A stretch of DNA of 64,000 nt from positions 2,170,001 through 2,234,000 of the forward strand of contig NZ_CP017297.1 of the NCBI RefSeq assembly GCF_001969445.1, written 5' to 3'. The translations under genes and the position numbers were made by a program. The notes below the pieces were generated by a model. The model made no database searches. It saw nothing but the letters and a program-made list of their open reading frames with translations, and was not told where the DNA came from. Below, one piece after another: positions 58,557 through 64,000 of this stretch; position 1 is the first letter of the stretch, and every line of letters begins with the position of its first letter. The stretch comes from Brachybacterium sp. P6-10-X1 (GTDB lineage Bacteria; Actinomycetota; Actinomycetes; Actinomycetales; Dermabacteraceae).

Positions 58557-58991
58557 TCAGCTGCCCGGGAGACCTCGCACCGCCAGCAGTCGACCCGTCC
58601 GATCCAGTTCCGCCTCCAGGGCGCGCGCCGTCGCCGCATGCACCCGCAGCGCCCGGGCGCGTCCGAGCGATCCGCCGAGCCACCGCCCCTCCCCCGCGCC
58701 CCACGTGTAACGGGCCACCGTCCTGCCCTCGGCCTCGGCGTCGCCCTCGCTCCCGGCCCTGCGCCCGGACCCGGTCAGCGCGACCTGCGCGGTCAGGAAG
58801 AACCTCCGACCGGCGAGTCCGCCCAGCAGCAGGGTCCGACGACGGCTGCCGCACTCGTAGTCGACCCGACCTTCACCGCGCGGGCGAGGGCGCCATCCTC
58901 GGCCGACGAAGAACGTCTCGACGAGCACCCCGACGACCTCGCTGTCGCCGCGCACGACGAGCTCCATGCCCCCGGGCCGGTCGATGCTCAT
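58557..58991 (-). CDS. Hypothetical protein downstream of a histidine phosphatase
   Basis: A 144-residue protein I do not recognise. It is basic, Arg/Gly-rich and mixed beta/alpha, with VDYECGSRRRTLLLGGLAGRR in the middle and an Ala/Arg helix near the C-terminus. ATG 58991 overlaps the upstream stop (ATGA), so it is expressed with the phosphatase; a start at the ninth residue (MELVVRG) is possible. Coding is supported by codon bias and by the coupling. Confidence 0.65.
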   Translation of the reverse strand: MSIDRPGGMELVVRGDSEVVGVLVETFFVGRGWRPRPRGEGRVDYECGSRRRTLLLGGLAGRRFFLTAQVALTGSGRRAGSEGDAEAEGRTVARYTWGAGEGRWLGGSLGRARALRVHAATARALEAELDRTGRLLAVRGLPGS

Positions 58992-59755
58992 GGAGCCGCC
59001 CCCGGCGCCCCCTCGTCGGCATCGCGGCGCGTCGGGATCCGGCCGTCGGCCCGGCGATCCGACGGGGTGCCGTCATCGGCGACGCCGTGTCCCGGGGTTC
59101 CGTCGTGTCCCGGGGTTCCGTCGTGTCCCGAGGTCACGTCGACCGTCGGGGTCCCCTCGCCCACCGACGTGTCCACGAGCCGCGCGTCGCCGAGCCGTCG
59201 CAGTTCGGCGTTGCCCAGGTGCGGGACGTCGCGGTGGTCGTGGGGATCCACGCCCGCCCTGACGGCGAGCGCGATCTGCAGGACGTCCCCGTGGGCGACC
59301 AGGACCACCGGGACGTCGACGTCCGGCGCGTCGACCTCCCGCAGCACCTGCCCGATGCGCCTCGCCACGTCCTGGACCGGCTCGACCCCGCCCTCGTGGG
59401 CGCCGCGCTCCCGGTCCACGGCCCACACCTGCTCGTAGGCGCTCGCGGGACCGTCGTCGTGGATCCCGAAGCTGCGTTCCCGCAGCCGCGGATCCAGGCG
59501 CGGGTCCTGCGCTCCGAGGACGCCCGCGAACTCCTCTGCGGTCTGGCGAGCGCGGGCGAAATCGCTGGAGAGGACGAGTGCATCGGCCCCCAGTCCCTGC
59601 TCGAGCCCTCGGCGTCCCGCCTGTCGGGCCTGTTCACGGCCGCGCGACGTGAGGCCGACCTCGACCAGGGCGCGAGTCCCCGGAGCCGAGACGATCAGCC
59701 CGTCGACGTTCGCCGTGGACTCGCCGTGCCGCAGCACCCAGATGTCGTTGTTCAT
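58988..59755 (-). CDS. Histidine phosphatase (phosphoglycerate mutase-like)
   Basis: Phosphatase of 255 residues with the phosphohistidine motif LRHGESTAN at the start, SSDFARARQTAEEF, the acid region RERSFG, and the second His in VVLVAHGDVLQI. Broad-specificity phosphatases and mutase-like enzymes share this pattern, so the substrate is open. The last ~60 residues are a disordered tail with GHDGTP repeats, coded by an 18-base tandem repeat. GAGGGAG lies before ATG 59755. Confidence 0.88.
   Translation of the reverse strand: MNNDIWVLRHGESTANVDGLIVSAPGTRALVEVGLTSRGREQARQAGRRGLEQGLGADALVLSSDFARARQTAEEFAGVLGAQDPRLDPRLRERSFGIHDDGPASAYEQVWAVDRERGAHEGGVEPVQDVARRIGQVLREVDAPDVDVPVVLVAHGDVLQIALAVRAGVDPHDHRDVPHLGNAELRRLGDARLVDTSVGEGTPTVDVTSGHDGTPGHDGTPGHGVADDGTPSDRRADGRIPTRRDADEGAPGAAP
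59087..59140. repeat. 18-base tandem repeat inside the histidine phosphatase gene
   Basis: Copies at 59087-59104 and 59105-59122 are identical (GTGTCCCGGGGTTCCGTC); the third, 59123-59140, has diverged. As multiples of three they repeat GHDGTP in the protein tail without shifting the frame. Confidence 0.8.
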
Positions 59756-59864
59756 CGCTCCCTCGTCCTGGATCGGAGCCGGGAGAGCACCGCCGCACGG
59801 CACGCTCCCGGCTCCTCGCCTCGGTCCGCCCTGTTCAGGGAGGTGGTGGCTGTGCCCGGGGTGC

Positions 59865-61571
59865 TCAGGGAGTCGTGACCTTGCCCGGGTTCAGGTTCCG
59901 GCCCGGGTCGTTGTCGGCCAGCAGACCCTTGACGATGCGCACACCGACCCCACCGATGTCCTCGGTGATCCACGGCTGGTGCTCGATGCCCACCGCATGG
60001 TGATGGGAGACCGTCGATCCCAGATCCACGAAGGCCTGCTGCACCGCGTTCTTGGCCGCGTAGTACTGCGCCAGCGCCTGCTCGTCGGACGAGTACGGGA
60101 AGGCGAAGGTGAAGTAGAGGCACGCGCCGGAGTGGTAGCTGTGCGACATGTGGCAGAACATGAAGCCCGGCAGTCCCTGCTCCTCCTGCACCGCGTAGAA
60201 CGCGTCATAGACCGCTGAATGGACCTCGTTGATGTTCGACCAGGTCGCCCCGGTGTCGCAGACGTCGCCGAAGACCTGGTAGTTCAGCAGGAAGTCGCGC
60301 AGGTAGGGGGTGTCGAACTTCTTCTGGTCGTAGATCGCGCCGGGCCCCGCGCCGAGGGTGATGCCGCCGGCCTTCTTCACGATCTTCTTCACGAGCGATT
60401 TCTGCTGCTCGACCGACTCCTTGGAGCCCTCGAAGCACACGTAGGAGATCGACATCTCGTTGGTCGTGTCCCACCCCTTCGAACGCAGGTAGGAGAACAG
60501 GCCGTCCTGCACCTTCGCGGCGACCTTCCCCTTGGTCGAGGTGGGCTCCTTGACCATGGACAGGCTGAACTCGGTCTCCGGACCGTCGGAGAGCCGGGTG
60601 AAGGTCGGGGTGACGTCGGTGGAGCGGGCGATGGCGTGCATGCCGCGGATGCCGTGCTCCCAGTCGGGGTACATGTAGGCGATCACCTGGCGGACCGGGG
60701 AGATGCGGTGGACCTGCACGGTCACCTCGGTGATCACGCCGAGCCGTCCTTCGCTGCCCAGGATCATCTCGTGCACGGACGGGCCGGAGTCGCGGCCCGG
60801 GATCGCCTTGGTGACCGCCGTGCCGTCGGGGTGGACCATGCGCAGGCCGCGCGCGATGTCCTCGATGTCGCCGTACTTGTCCGACTGCATGCCCGAGGAG
60901 CGGGTCGCGGCCCAGCCGCCGAGGGTGGAGTAGGTGAAGGAGTCCGGGAAATGGCCGACGGTCCAGCCCAGGTCGTTCAGCTGCTCCTCGAGGTCCGGTC
61001 CGTACACGCCGGCCTCCACCCGGGCCAGGCCCGCGGTGTCGTCGATCTCCAGGACCTCCCGCATCCGGCCGAGGTTCATCGTCAGCACGGGGCGCTGCTC
61101 GTCGACGTCGGGCGTGACGGAACCGGAGATGCACGAGCCGCCGCCGTAGGGGATCAGCACCAGATCCTCATCCAGCACGATCCGCAGGACCTGGGCGACC
61201 TCGTCCTCGGAGTTCGGATAGACCACCGCGTCGACGAGACGGGCGAAGTCGCCGGCGCGCACGCGGAACAGATCCGGCAGCGAGCGGCCGAAGGAGTGCA
61301 CGACGCGGTACTCGTCGTCATCGGCCAGGTTCTCCTCGCCGACGACGCCGACGAGCTGTGTGCGCACCGCGTCCGGCAGACGACCGGCCGGCACCTCGAA
61401 ATCCGCCAGCTCCGGTTCGACGGGCTGCTTGGAGTCCAGGTCGACGCCGACCTTGTTCCGCGCCAGCGCGGGGAAGGCGGGCTTGTTGTCATAGCGGAAG
61501 GTGACGTCGTCCAGTCCCCACCCCCACCACTTGTGCCGCTTGACCTCGCGGGCGCTGAGCCGATCGCTCAT
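59865..61571 (-). CDS. Alkyl-DHAP synthase-like FAD oxidase (AGPS family)
   Basis: FAD protein of 568 residues whose pattern follows alkyldihydroxyacetonephosphate synthase, the enzyme that makes the ether bond by swapping acyl for a fatty alcohol. Shared with AGPS: the start KWWGWG, the FAD loop PYGGGSCISGSVTP, the block STLGGWAATRSSGMQSDKYG, EMILGSEGRLGVITEV, the active Tyr region GACLYFTFAF, and SHHHAVG. One difference: the Arg in the mammalian CRVT motif is His here (CHMSHSY). A related FAD-linked oxidase acting on another hydroxy acid is the alternative. ATG 61571 overlaps the PlsC gene. Confidence 0.82.
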   Translation of the reverse strand: MSDRLSAREVKRHKWWGWGLDDVTFRYDNKPAFPALARNKVGVDLDSKQPVEPELADFEVPAGRLPDAVRTQLVGVVGEENLADDDEYRVVHSFGRSLPDLFRVRAGDFARLVDAVVYPNSEDEVAQVLRIVLDEDLVLIPYGGGSCISGSVTPDVDEQRPVLTMNLGRMREVLEIDDTAGLARVEAGVYGPDLEEQLNDLGWTVGHFPDSFTYSTLGGWAATRSSGMQSDKYGDIEDIARGLRMVHPDGTAVTKAIPGRDSGPSVHEMILGSEGRLGVITEVTVQVHRISPVRQVIAYMYPDWEHGIRGMHAIARSTDVTPTFTRLSDGPETEFSLSMVKEPTSTKGKVAAKVQDGLFSYLRSKGWDTTNEMSISYVCFEGSKESVEQQKSLVKKIVKKAGGITLGAGPGAIYDQKKFDTPYLRDFLLNYQVFGDVCDTGATWSNINEVHSAVYDAFYAVQEEQGLPGFMFCHMSHSYHSGACLYFTFAFPYSSDEQALAQYYAAKNAVQQAFVDLGSTVSHHHAVGIEHQPWITEDIGGVGVRIVKGLLADNDPGRNLNPGKVTTP

Positions 61572-62452
61572 GCGGGTCCCTCCTCGTCCCGGACTCCGGC
61601 GCCCAGGACCTCGTCGTGATGCTCGTCGTACAGGTTCTTCACGCGCTCGCGGATGCGCTCGGAGAACGCCACCGCGGATTCGTGCTCGTGGGAGATCATC
61701 GGGTCGCCGAACACCACGGCGACCGGGGGGCGGCCCTTGGTCGGCCAGCTGCGGCCCTTCGGCATCGCCTCGTACCCGCCGATGATGGCCGCCGGGACCA
61801 CGGGCACGCCGACGCCGATGGCGAGCGCGGCGGCGCCGGGCTTGAAGTCGGCCATCTTCCCCGTCGTCTGGCGGCCGCCCTCGGGGAACACCAGGATCGG
61901 GACCCCGGAGCGCAGCAGCTTGCGGGAGGTGCCCGAGTGCTTGCGCGACCCCCCGCGGTCGATCGGGAAGGCGTTCATCATCAGGCGCACGAAGATCCGG
62001 CGATGCCAGTGGTCGAACCAGTAGTCCGTGGCCACGCCCGTGCACAGGAACCGCCCCTGGGTCCAGGGCAGGCTCATCGCCAGCAGCGGGCCGTCCACGT
62101 GGCTGGTGTGGTTGGCGACCAGCACGAACGGCCCGCGAATGCTCTTGACCCGCCGGTGCGTCTTCACCTGCGGGGTCACGGCGGAGTTCACCACCGCCCG
62201 GAAGATCACGCGCTGGAGGACGAAGCGCACACCAGCGCGCCAGGTGGAGCGGTACTTCGCCAGTTCCCCCTGGGGCTTCTCCCAGCCCTCGCCGCGGGAC
62301 CGGGCCGAGAGCGAATCCATCAGCCGCCTGCCGGGGCCGGGTTCGTTGCCCCCGGCGGGGTGCTTCCTCGCGTCGCCGGCGTGCTGCCGCTCGTCGGAGA
62401 ACTGCTCGTCGGGATGCTGTTCGCCGGGATCCGTGGGGTCCTGAGGGCTCAT
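61568..62452 (-). CDS. PlsC-type acyltransferase
   Basis: Glycerolipid acyltransferase of 294 residues. The catalytic HX4D motif is NHTSHVD; the glycerol-phosphate motif is FPEGGRQT, with VVPAAIIGGYEAMP after it. The N-terminal ~75 residues are polar and Asp/Glu/His-rich. It normally acylates lysophosphatidate, but beside an AGPS-like gene it could instead acylate DHAP or alkyl-glycerol phosphate. It lies 4 bases after the SDR gene and overlaps the AGPS-like gene. Confidence 0.9.
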   Translation of the reverse strand: MSPQDPTDPGEQHPDEQFSDERQHAGDARKHPAGGNEPGPGRRLMDSLSARSRGEGWEKPQGELAKYRSTWRAGVRFVLQRVIFRAVVNSAVTPQVKTHRRVKSIRGPFVLVANHTSHVDGPLLAMSLPWTQGRFLCTGVATDYWFDHWHRRIFVRLMMNAFPIDRGGSRKHSGTSRKLLRSGVPILVFPEGGRQTTGKMADFKPGAAALAIGVGVPVVPAAIIGGYEAMPKGRSWPTKGRPPVAVVFGDPMISHEHESAVAFSERIRERVKNLYDEHHDEVLGAGVRDEEGPA

Positions 62453-62456
62453 CCGA

Positions 62457-63233
62457 TCACTTCTCCCTGCTGCGGCGGTGGCTGAGCACGGCGCTGAGGG
62501 AAGCCACCACCCCGCGCGGCGTGGTGCGCAGCACTGCGGCGATCAGCTTCCAGCGCTTGGACGGGATGGAGACCGGCTTGCCGCGGGCCACATCGCGCAG
62601 GCAGTCGGCGACCAGACGATCCGCGTCCAGCCACAGCACACCGGGGATCGAGGAGCCCTTGATGCCCGCGCGGTTGTGGAACTCGGTGCGCACCCATCCC
62701 GGCATCAGGGCCGTGACCTGCACGCCGCTGCCGTCGAGCTGCACCCCGAGGGACTCGGAGTAGTTGCCCACCCAGGCCTTGATGGCCGAGTAGTTGTTCT
62801 GGGTGACCAGGGCGCTGACCGAGCCGACGTTGATGATCCAGCCTCGGCCCCGCCGGCCCATTCCGCGTCCGGCCGCTCCACCGAGCTTCAGCACGGCGCG
62901 GATCATCACCTCGAAGCCGCGGTCGTGCGCGGTGAGGTCCTCCTCGAGCAGGCTCGCCCTCACCGAGAAGCCCGCGTTGTTCACCAGCACGTCGACCGGG
63001 TCGGCGTCGGTCTCGAGGCGGTCCGCCACCCGCTGCTGCGCCGCACGGTCCGAGAGGTCCGCCACCAGGGTCTCGACCTCGACGCCGTACGCGTCGCGCA
63101 GCTGGGTGGCACTGTCGTCCAGGCGGTCCGCATCGCGCGCGACCAGCACCAGCGCTGCTCCGCGGGCTGCGAAAGCTCGTGCGAAAGCGGCCCCGATGCC
63201 CGCGGTGCCACCGGTGATGAGGGCCCTATGCAT
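62457..63233 (-). CDS. Short-chain dehydrogenase/reductase
   Basis: NAD(P)-dependent SDR of 258 residues. Cofactor motif TGGTAGIGAAFARAF and NNAG are present; the catalytic Ser-Tyr-Lys are in GSVSALVTQNNYSAIKAW. The C-terminus is basic with RTTPRGVVASLSAVL, perhaps membrane-associated. First gene of the operon with PlsC and AGPS-like genes, so a lipid ketone such as alkyl- or acyl-DHAP is an attractive substrate (inference). A TATCGT at 63246-63241 lies 7 bases before the ATG, fitting a leaderless mRNA. Confidence 0.88.
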   Translation of the reverse strand: MHRALITGGTAGIGAAFARAFAARGAALVLVARDADRLDDSATQLRDAYGVEVETLVADLSDRAAQQRVADRLETDADPVDVLVNNAGFSVRASLLEEDLTAHDRGFEVMIRAVLKLGGAAGRGMGRRGRGWIINVGSVSALVTQNNYSAIKAWVGNYSESLGVQLDGSGVQVTALMPGWVRTEFHNRAGIKGSSIPGVLWLDADRLVADCLRDVARGKPVSIPSKRWKLIAAVLRTTPRGVVASLSAVLSHRRSREK

Positions 63234-63411
63234 GGCGGCTACGATACACTAGCGCCGCCCTGACCAGCGCAGGAATGACCCCTGGTGAGGTGGCCTCGAG
63301 GCGCGTGGATCGCGACCGGGGCCCCGACCTTCCCGGCTCCTGCCGCCCGGCCCGTCTGCTGCCCCCGCCCCCGCCTCCACCGCTTGCCGCACCCGTCCAC
63401 AGAGGGATCCC

Positions 63412-64000
63412 ATGTCGAACAGCTCCACGTCCGCCGACCCGTCCGCCGCCCCCGGCGGGCCCCGAGACGGGGACCGACGGATCCTGCTGACCGGCGTCAC
63501 CGGATTCCTGGGGCAGGCGGTCCTGCGCTCCCTGCTGGAGACCACCGAGGGGACCCACGTCACCGCCGTCGTGCGGCCCAAGGGTTCGCTCACCGGGCGC
63601 AAGCGCCTCGAACAGCTGCTGCGCAAGCCGATCTTCTCCTCCTGGTCCGACGCGCTCAGCGCCGACGGGAGCGACGGCAAGGCCGTCGTGAAGGCCGCGT
63701 TCGACGAGCGGGTCGAGGTCCTCGAGGGCGATCTCACCGATATGCCAGCGATCGAGGCGCCGCTGGACGTCGTCATCCACTCGGCCTCCTCCGTCTCCTT
63801 CGACCCGCCGATCGACGACGCCTTCCGCACCAACGTCGGCGGCGCCCAGAACCTGTACGAGGCGCTGCTGGCCTCCGGGCAGGACCCGCACGTCATCCAC
63901 GTCTCCACCGCCTATGTCGGCGGCATCGCCAAGGGCCTGCGCCAGGAGGGGCCGCTGCAGACGGACGTCGACTGGCGCGCCGAGTACCGGGCGGCCCTCG
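63412..64000 (+). CDS. Fatty acyl-CoA reductase-like protein (partial)
   Basis: The first 196 codons of a gene that runs off the right edge. After ~20 disordered residues comes the NAD-binding-4 (male sterility) domain: ILLTGVTGFLGQAVLRSLLE, RVEVLEGDLTD, DVVIHSASSVSFD, NVGGAQNLYEAL and HVSTAYVGG. This domain is found in fatty acyl-CoA reductases and in terminal reductase domains. It diverges from the SDR-PlsC-AGPS operon with 178 bases between. If a fatty acyl reductase, it would provide the fatty alcohol for AGPS. Confidence 0.8.
   Translation, partial: MSNSSTSADPSAAPGGPRDGDRRILLTGVTGFLGQAVLRSLLETTEGTHVTAVVRPKGSLTGRKRLEQLLRKPIFSSWSDALSADGSDGKAVVKAAFDERVEVLEGDLTDMPAIEAPLDVVIHSASSVSFDPPIDDAFRTNVGGAQNLYEALLASGQDPHVIHVSTAYVGGIAKGLRQEGPLQTDVDWRAEYRAAL

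Follow-up and report, generated by a model that had tools for sequence, protein, structure and literature searches.

A predicted dihydroxyacetone phosphate-type ether-lipid gene module in Brachybacterium, and a diiron-type protein pair that may act with it

The ether lipids of animals are made by a peroxisomal pathway that employs FAR1, GNPAT, AGPS, and an acyl/alkyl-dihydroxyacetone phosphate (acyl/alkyl-DHAP) reductase. The closest precedent for the locus described here is the operon MXAN_1676-1674 of Myxococcus xanthus, which, in the accessible sections of a 2022 review, is described as encoding AGPS, a fatty acyl-CoA reductase (FAR) domain, an acyltransferase domain, and an NAD-dependent epimerase/dehydratase (PMC9131029). 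The same sections single out the myxobacteria as an exception among aerobic bacteria on account of their plasmalogens, attribute the vinyl ether of Myxococcus to CarF, and report that disrupting the AGPS gene has little effect and that ElbD plays the larger part (PMC9131029). PlsA/PlsR, as described in the available part of its source, provides a bacterial anaerobic route to plasmalogens that has been reported also from some Actinobacteria (PMC9702350). The present study suggests that Brachybacterium sp. P6-10-X1 carries a locus for an animal-type DHAP route to alkyl ether lipids. Specifically, four adjacent genes lie at the end of a 64,000-nucleotide stretch (the window; G000:C1:2170001-2234000) of its 4.39-Mb, single-contig genome, and a diiron-type protein pair encoded elsewhere in the same genome may act with them. 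The features of the locus are as follows.

59865..61571, minus strand: AGPS-type flavoprotein, 568 amino acids, proposed alkyl-DHAP synthase (PF01565 and PF02913; phmmer against the Protein Data Bank, PDB)
61568..62452, minus strand: PlsC/AGPAT-type acyltransferase, 294 amino acids, proposed DHAP or sn-2 acyltransferase (PF01553)
62457..63233, minus strand: classical short-chain dehydrogenase/reductase (SDR), 258 amino acids, proposed alkyl-DHAP reductase (PF00106)
63234..63411, no strand: 178-bp divergent intergenic region between the SDR and reductase genes, promoters presumed (gene coordinates)
63412..64000, plus strand: fatty acyl-CoA reductase, N-terminal part, truncated at the window end (PF07993)

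All four genes that an earlier note, made from the sequence alone, had placed side by side are present at these coordinates, and its description of three nearly touching genes with a divergent fourth agrees with the measured spacing. The three minus-strand genes make up a tight operon that runs from SDR through acyltransferase to AGPS; the SDR gene stops 4 bp before the acyltransferase gene starts, and the stop of the latter overlaps the start of the AGPS gene by the 4 bp ATGA, while the plus-strand reductase begins at 63412, 178 bp from the divergent SDR start.

The AGPS and reductase of this locus are homologous to those of the animal pathway, and the proposed chemistry would proceed in the same order; unlike the animal pathway, the locus has a PlsC/AGPAT-type acyltransferase, a HAD-bearing reductase, and clustered genes, and no CarF/PEDS1 was detected. 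The gene content is shared with the Myxococcus operon, and the Myxococcus elb cluster likewise encodes a HAD-like protein, ElbB; however, in Myxococcus the fusion partner of FAR is a GNPAT-like acyltransferase, whereas the reductase here carries HAD, and the accessible sections make no mention of a ferritin-like pair (PMC9131029). The pair would be new if confirmed. The reaction proposed for the diiron pair, O2-dependent conversion of an alkyl to an alkenyl ether, is the same as that of CarF/TMEM189 (PEDS1), but the pair resembles the ferritin/acyl-acyl carrier protein (acyl-ACP)-desaturase group. PF10520, the CarF/PEDS1 family, has no match in the Brachybacterium genome and none over cut-off among 248 genomes of the order (one subthreshold match, in G503), in a search whose sensitivity is unproven because no control genome gave a match. 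PlsA/PlsR, unlike the module, starts from a diacyl lipid and reduces its acyl chain at sn-1, according to the available part of its description (PMC9702350).

Sequence comparison assigns the flavoprotein firmly to the AGPS relatives. In a phmmer search of the PDB, it matches the ADPS of Dictyostelium (2uuu) with 346 bits over query residues 61-564 and peroxisomal AGPS (4bby) with 288 bits over residues 31-556, whereas the next-best PDB family, D-lactate dehydrogenase, reaches 81 bits over residues 113-295 only. Counted along the phmmer alignment, T309, R419, R515, Y578, and H615-H617 of 4bby (guinea-pig numbering), which we take to be catalytic or substrate residues of AGPS, correspond to T216, R326, R425, Y486, and H523-H525 of the window protein. 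When the latter is aligned with 24 relatives that are 50-78% identical to it, R326, R425, Y486, and H523-H525 are identical in all 25 sequences and T216 in 24 of them. Because of these scores and the retained AGPS residues, we class the protein, as the earlier note had done, as an AGPS relative; the D-lactate or glycolate oxidase identity, which that note had named as the best match that would speak against it, is contradicted by the sequence comparison with solved enzymes and is rejected. We hold with high confidence that the AGPS-type protein would exchange alkyl for acyl on DHAP. The genome encodes no second flavoprotein match of such strength (the runner-up scores 69 bits), and the closest named relatives, which belong to Brachybacterium, have full-length flavoproteins at most 91% identical to it.

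Assignment of the divergent gene to the fatty acyl-CoA reductase family, which rests on the matches that follow, is likewise firm. Beyond the window, the predicted protein reaches 761 residues (L005:5412-7697) and ends in a HAD-IB domain, a fusion that lies outside the window and hence is invisible from the window sequence alone. NAD_binding_4 (PF07993) scores 158 bits over residues 26-347, the Sterile domain match is weak (31.4 bits versus a cut-off of 35.4), and the C-terminal HAD domain (PF12710) scores 120 bits over residues 548-732. The motifs include YTFTK at 264 and, in the HAD domain, DLDGT and GDSHAD. A non-lipid enzyme in the continuation of this reading frame had been named in the earlier note as a result that would refute it; instead, the protein matches the solved fatty acyl-CoA reductase 7eoz with 159 bits over residues 20-516.

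The idea of a homolog for each peroxisomal step stands for AGPS and the reductase. It does not stand for the other two proteins, since the acyltransferase belongs with PlsC/AGPAT and is without a match in four uncut loci, and the SDR is matched at superfamily level only. The acyltransferase scores 74 bits with PF01553 and contains NHTSHVD at 114 and FPEG at 189, the former an instance of the NHxSxxD motif that we take to be of PlsC type. Its sole PDB match (E ≤0.001) is 5kym, a 1-acyl-glycerol-3-phosphate (1-acyl-G3P) acyltransferase, at 56 bits. Because of these motifs and this match, we consider the protein PlsC/AGPAT-like rather than GNPAT-like, and the proposed GNPAT identity is rejected, use of DHAP still being possible. 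The SDR scores 126 bits with PF00106 and carries NNAG at 85 and YSAIK at 148. It matches 213 NCBIfam models, and among the 25 models listed none reaches its cut-off, the best being mycolate reductase (157 bits; cut-off 380); its PDB matches are other SDRs, and the NCBIfam and PDB comparison does not establish a tie to DHRS7B. This generic, superfamily-level match means that the SDR, like the acyltransferase, is allotted to its pathway step by gene context.

Conservation of the set in relatives, a check that the note had suggested, is extensive. A scan of named genomes yielded 289 relatives, the best 80 of which were kept; all are Actinobacteria by title, and they are closest relatives rather than independent samples. 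Genes were counted by tblastn of the window proteins, the clusters from the open reading frame caller having merged or miscalled overlapping frames. All four genes are present in 72 of the 80 kept loci, so the arrangement is not due to chance. Individually, the acyltransferase is found in 75 loci, the SDR in 79 (truncated by a contig end in one of these and non-adjacent in another), and the reductase and HAD in 76. The four loci with no reductase match comprise two at contig ends (L030 and L059) and two of Microlunatus (L069 and L078) that are uncut and have none within the locus. In loci of Jiangella, Ruania, Occultella, Georgenia, and Segeticoccus, the genes are codirectional in the order reductase-SDR-acyltransferase-AGPS.

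Co-occurrence across the order points the same way. In a phylum-wide sample, AGPS was found at E ≤1e-60 in 48 of 296 genomes and just 2 of these exceeded 600 bits; because this sample contained too few members of the orthologue group, we used an order-level sample of 248 genomes at least 90% complete, taking 560 bits or more to denote an AGPS orthologue and 230-390 bits a distant AGPS. Orthologues of AGPS occur in 55 of the 248 genomes and the reductase in 61. Every genome with the orthologue has the reductase (55/55), versus 6 of the 193 others (Fisher P 9e-49); by genus the figures are 15/15 and 3/70 (P 4.5e-14). The two genes lie within 10 kb of each other in 39 of the 55 genomes and are unlinked in 16. 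The linked cases correspond to a high-scoring reductase group (39 genomes, at least 750 bits, all within 10 kb of AGPS), and a low-scoring group accounts for the remaining 22; this second group is tied to AGPS too, though in few genera. Thus the joint pathway that the earlier note had proposed is backed by both conserved gene order and co-occurrence.

Distant AGPS homologues in the order sample, which are 33-38% identical to the window protein, score 230-390 bits, and are homologous over most of their length, differ from the window group in the company they keep: of the 16 genomes (among 248) that have only such homologues, 1 has the reductase (an example of a distant homologue is G237:C2:320649, L102). 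In the one example checked, the active-site residues are the same as in the window protein. The residues on their own therefore do not distinguish the orthologues, and we dropped them as a marker.

Collectively, these observations give good support to the reading of the locus as a DHAP-route alkyl-ether-lipid module, to which we give a probability of about 0.8, a figure that excludes the diiron step. From them we infer a pathway, including the activity of each enzyme, the substrates of the acyltransferase, SDR, and HAD domain, and the whole diiron step. The pathway would be aerobic, and the locus would supply its early part, working like the animal peroxisomal route. The reductase would convert acyl-CoA to a long-chain, probably branched, alcohol; the acyltransferase would load an acyl chain onto DHAP; the AGPS-type flavoenzyme would replace that chain with the alcohol, forming alkyl-DHAP; and the SDR would reduce this to 1-alkyl-G3P, which would feed into phospholipid synthesis. 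The HAD domain at the end of the reductase probably dephosphorylates an intermediate of the pathway. Finally, in many lineages, including that of the window genome (where the genes are unlinked), a putative diiron protein and its ligand-poor paralogue would introduce a double bond into the alkyl chain beside the ether oxygen, yielding plasmalogens.

The two proteins proposed for this last step, here called c4a and c4b, came to attention through their location: of the 80 loci, 26 have one or both next to the reductase, and both are complete in 24 (L049:3-224, a piece of c4a truncated by the end of its contig, was not counted as c4b). Such loci occur in Brevibacterium, some Kocuria, Streptomyces and Actinacidiphila, Occultella, Ruania, Phytoactinopolyspora, Frigoribacterium, and Glaciihabitans. 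All 22 aligned c4a sequences share E45, E77xxH80, E141, and E171xxH174 (L083 numbering), six ligands in the arrangement E, ExxH, E, ExxH, which we take to be the pattern of ferritin-like diiron proteins and acyl-ACP desaturases. The acyl-ACP desaturase family PF03405 matches c4a at E 9e-4 or better in 4 of 4 copies scanned, and when c4a is compared by hhalign with acyl-ACP desaturases, ten of them from Actinobacteria, the result is E 5e-5 at a probability of 67%, and five of the ligand positions line up (in a control, the AGPS alignment reached 0.4%). No NCBIfam model reaches its cut-off on the c4a of the window genome, and no known function was found for the family. The second protein, c4b, is a paralogue of c4a (hhalign E 3e-49); in 18 aligned copies, position 80 is never H, position 171 never E, and position 77 is E in just 2, and c4b is predicted to bind no metal.

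In the window genome, c4a lies at G000:C1:3339574-3340359 with a c4b match just upstream (pair L089:5575-7153 = G000:C1:3339574-3341152). Within the order sample, c4a is found in 35 of 248 genomes, and 31 of these have an AGPS orthologue, linked within 12 kb in 14 and not in 17; of the 17 Brachybacterium genomes in the sample, 13 have c4a. By genus, the orthologue occurs in 10 of 11 genera with c4a versus 5 of 74 without (P 1e-8). In one genus (g233; G372:C1:137871 and G442:C27:16737), c4a is 75-76% identical to that of the window genome and AGPS 51-52%, a disparity that hints at lateral transfer of c4a between lineages already holding the AGPS module. The pair also occurs at G206:C1:3105980, G512:C1:1927076, and G237:C1:2795819, three genomes of a single genus, with neither AGPS orthologue nor reductase at the cut-offs used, although G237 has a distant AGPS; in this genus it is either a relic or has a second role.

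Lipid records provide a further line of comparison, dimethyl acetals being interpreted as an indication of vinyl ethers (accessible part of PMC7472656). By summation from Table 2 of one study, three columns of which were taken from earlier papers, dimethyl acetals amount to ~21-29% of peak area in four species of Subtercola; Agreia has little and Frondihabitans none (available part of PMC5945732). In the accessible text of another, anteiso-15:0 aldehyde/dimethyl acetal is reported in Frigoribacterium strain D8 and F. faeni (PMC12823222). Kineococcus has anteiso-15:0 dimethyl acetal, a result surprising to its authors at first sight, the peak having previously been named 14:0 2-OH by the MIDI system (accessible part of PMC7472656). 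Frigoribacterium is the only genus with a dimethyl-acetal record linked to loci of the present set: L083 and L085 each hold reductase, SDR, acyltransferase, AGPS, c4a, and c4b, in strains that differ from those analyzed for lipids. The papers cited here, in their accessible parts, name no gene for the dimethyl acetals of aerobic Actinobacteria, and no actinobacterial AGPS cluster or ferritin-like vinyl-ether enzyme appears in the open-access titles and abstract openings searched, most subscription papers lying outside that search. With regard to the anaerobic route, PF09989, presumably the domain of PlsA-type proteins, was found in 32 of 248 genomes (and in four control genomes) but in 0 of the 55 with an AGPS orthologue and 0 of the 35 with c4a, its depletion against AGPS having a P of 2e-4.

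Weighing these readings requires account to be taken of what speaks against them. For the module itself, the acyltransferase is not GNPAT-like and the active-site residues are kept by the one distant AGPS checked; the low-scoring reductases (22 of 61 genomes, 554-601 bits, 42-45% identical) belong to 16 genomes with an unlinked orthologue and 6 with none; the counts from the order, in which absences come from a first-pass search that scored the best candidates alone, ignore shared ancestry beyond the genus tally, genomes of one clade not being independent; and neither an assay of any enzyme of the cluster nor a lipid record for Brachybacterium was found among the open-access papers listed by the searches. 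An alternative in which the flavoprotein oxidizes D-2-hydroxyacids (lactate/glycolate) and no pathway unites the four genes is very improbable, for although the FAD_binding_4 domain is shared and the glcD model gives 123 bits (cut-off 568), the match to solved AGPS structures, the kept AGPS residues, and the invariable presence of the reductase with the AGPS orthologue argue otherwise. Much closer to an even chance is that the acyltransferase acylates sn-2 of alkyl-G3P, acyl-DHAP coming from an acyltransferase encoded elsewhere. Such a role would suit its PlsC/AGPAT-type motifs and best match, and tblastn gave no acyltransferase match in L050, L058, L072, and L081 (Nigerium, a Propionibacterium metagenome-assembled genome, and two Propioniciclava), which are uncut there and keep reductase-HAD, SDR, and AGPS, an absence that itself counts against the module as drawn. 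Seven neighbor proteins of these loci and L069 were scanned and matched no acyltransferase model; they are MFS, DUF1846, HipA, endonuclease/phosphatase-type, TENA/THI-4, and aminotransferase proteins, one having no match. However, the 4-bp overlap with the AGPS gene and the presence of the acyltransferase in 75 of 80 loci equally fit the step just before AGPS. It is unlikely, though conceivable, that the products are neutral ether lipids, the fused HAD domain removing phosphate to give an alkyl-diacylglycerol or alkylglycerol storage lipid rather than a phospholipid. HAD-IB phosphatases act on many different substrates, and nothing here fixes that of the fused domain. Its DLDGT and GDSHAD motifs and its occurrence in 76 of 80 loci count in favor of neutral lipids, as does the precedent of Myxococcus, which, in the accessible sections, makes an alkyl-diacylglycerol and has ElbB in its elb operon (PMC9131029); the dimethyl acetals of relatives cannot tell phospholipid from neutral lipid.

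The diiron step is the less certain part. Location, co-occurrence, ligand pattern, and the lipid reports of one linked genus lead us to suggest that c4a/c4b may be an aerobic vinyl-ether desaturase, and the fuller proposal, that aerobic Actinobacteria make plasmalogens via a DHAP-type module and a two-subunit diiron enzyme (one subunit active, the other having lost ligands) unrelated to CarF/PEDS1 and PlsA/PlsR, is a tentative one whose odds we place well short of even. Several observations count against it: the pair of the window genome lies ~1.1 Mb from the AGPS gene; PF03405 exceeds its cut-off in just 1 of the 4 scanned c4a copies, a weak desaturase relation, and finds no match in a search of the window genome; and a PDB profile search of c4a gave no convincing relative, DesA2 being at E 0.011. 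In addition, the accessible text of PMC12823222 reports no dimethyl acetals from two further species of Frigoribacterium, and the available part of a comparison of F. faeni with Glaciihabitans makes no mention of them (PMC7033078), yet Glaciihabitans L084 has the full set. That only saturated alkyl ethers are made, with the pair acting elsewhere (in mid-chain acyl or alkyl desaturation, or in deformylation of the reductase's aldehyde to hydrocarbons), is a serious possibility, if somewhat short of an even one. Acyl-ACP desaturases, the nearest profile relatives of c4a, if weak ones, act on acyl-ACPs; moreover, 24 of the 55 genomes with an AGPS orthologue have no c4a match, and 4 of the 35 with c4a (G206, G237, and G512, of one genus, and G298) have no orthologue. 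Saturated ethers alone would not account for the dimethyl acetals reported from aerobic Frigoribacterium, both of whose loci hold the pair, and would leave the vinyl-ether step otherwise without a candidate, CarF being over cut-off in 0 of 248 genomes (with no positive control) and PF09989 present in 0 of 55.

Around the locus, promoter and terminator scans gave no match, with no sigma-70-type match within 58800-64000. A minus-strand gene at 58988-59803, 61 bp downstream of the AGPS gene, resembles a histidine phosphatase by eye (RHGES), and its cluster is present in 11 loci, namely the window's own and those of Brachybacterium. Among the related loci, L040, titled Kocuria sp. 36, is closer in identity and layout to Brevibacterium than to other Kocuria, and the record may be misnamed.

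The module thus offers a candidate for each step, one of them from a family for which no known function was found. If the alkyl-ether reading is true, an animal-type DHAP ether-lipid route would be common in one order of Actinobacteria, which bears on the origin of the animal pathway. If the proposed role of the diiron pair is also true, it would add a possibly soluble vinyl-ether desaturase and a third route to vinyl-ether lipids, and the dimethyl acetals of aerobic Subtercola, Frigoribacterium, and Kineococcus would be accounted for.

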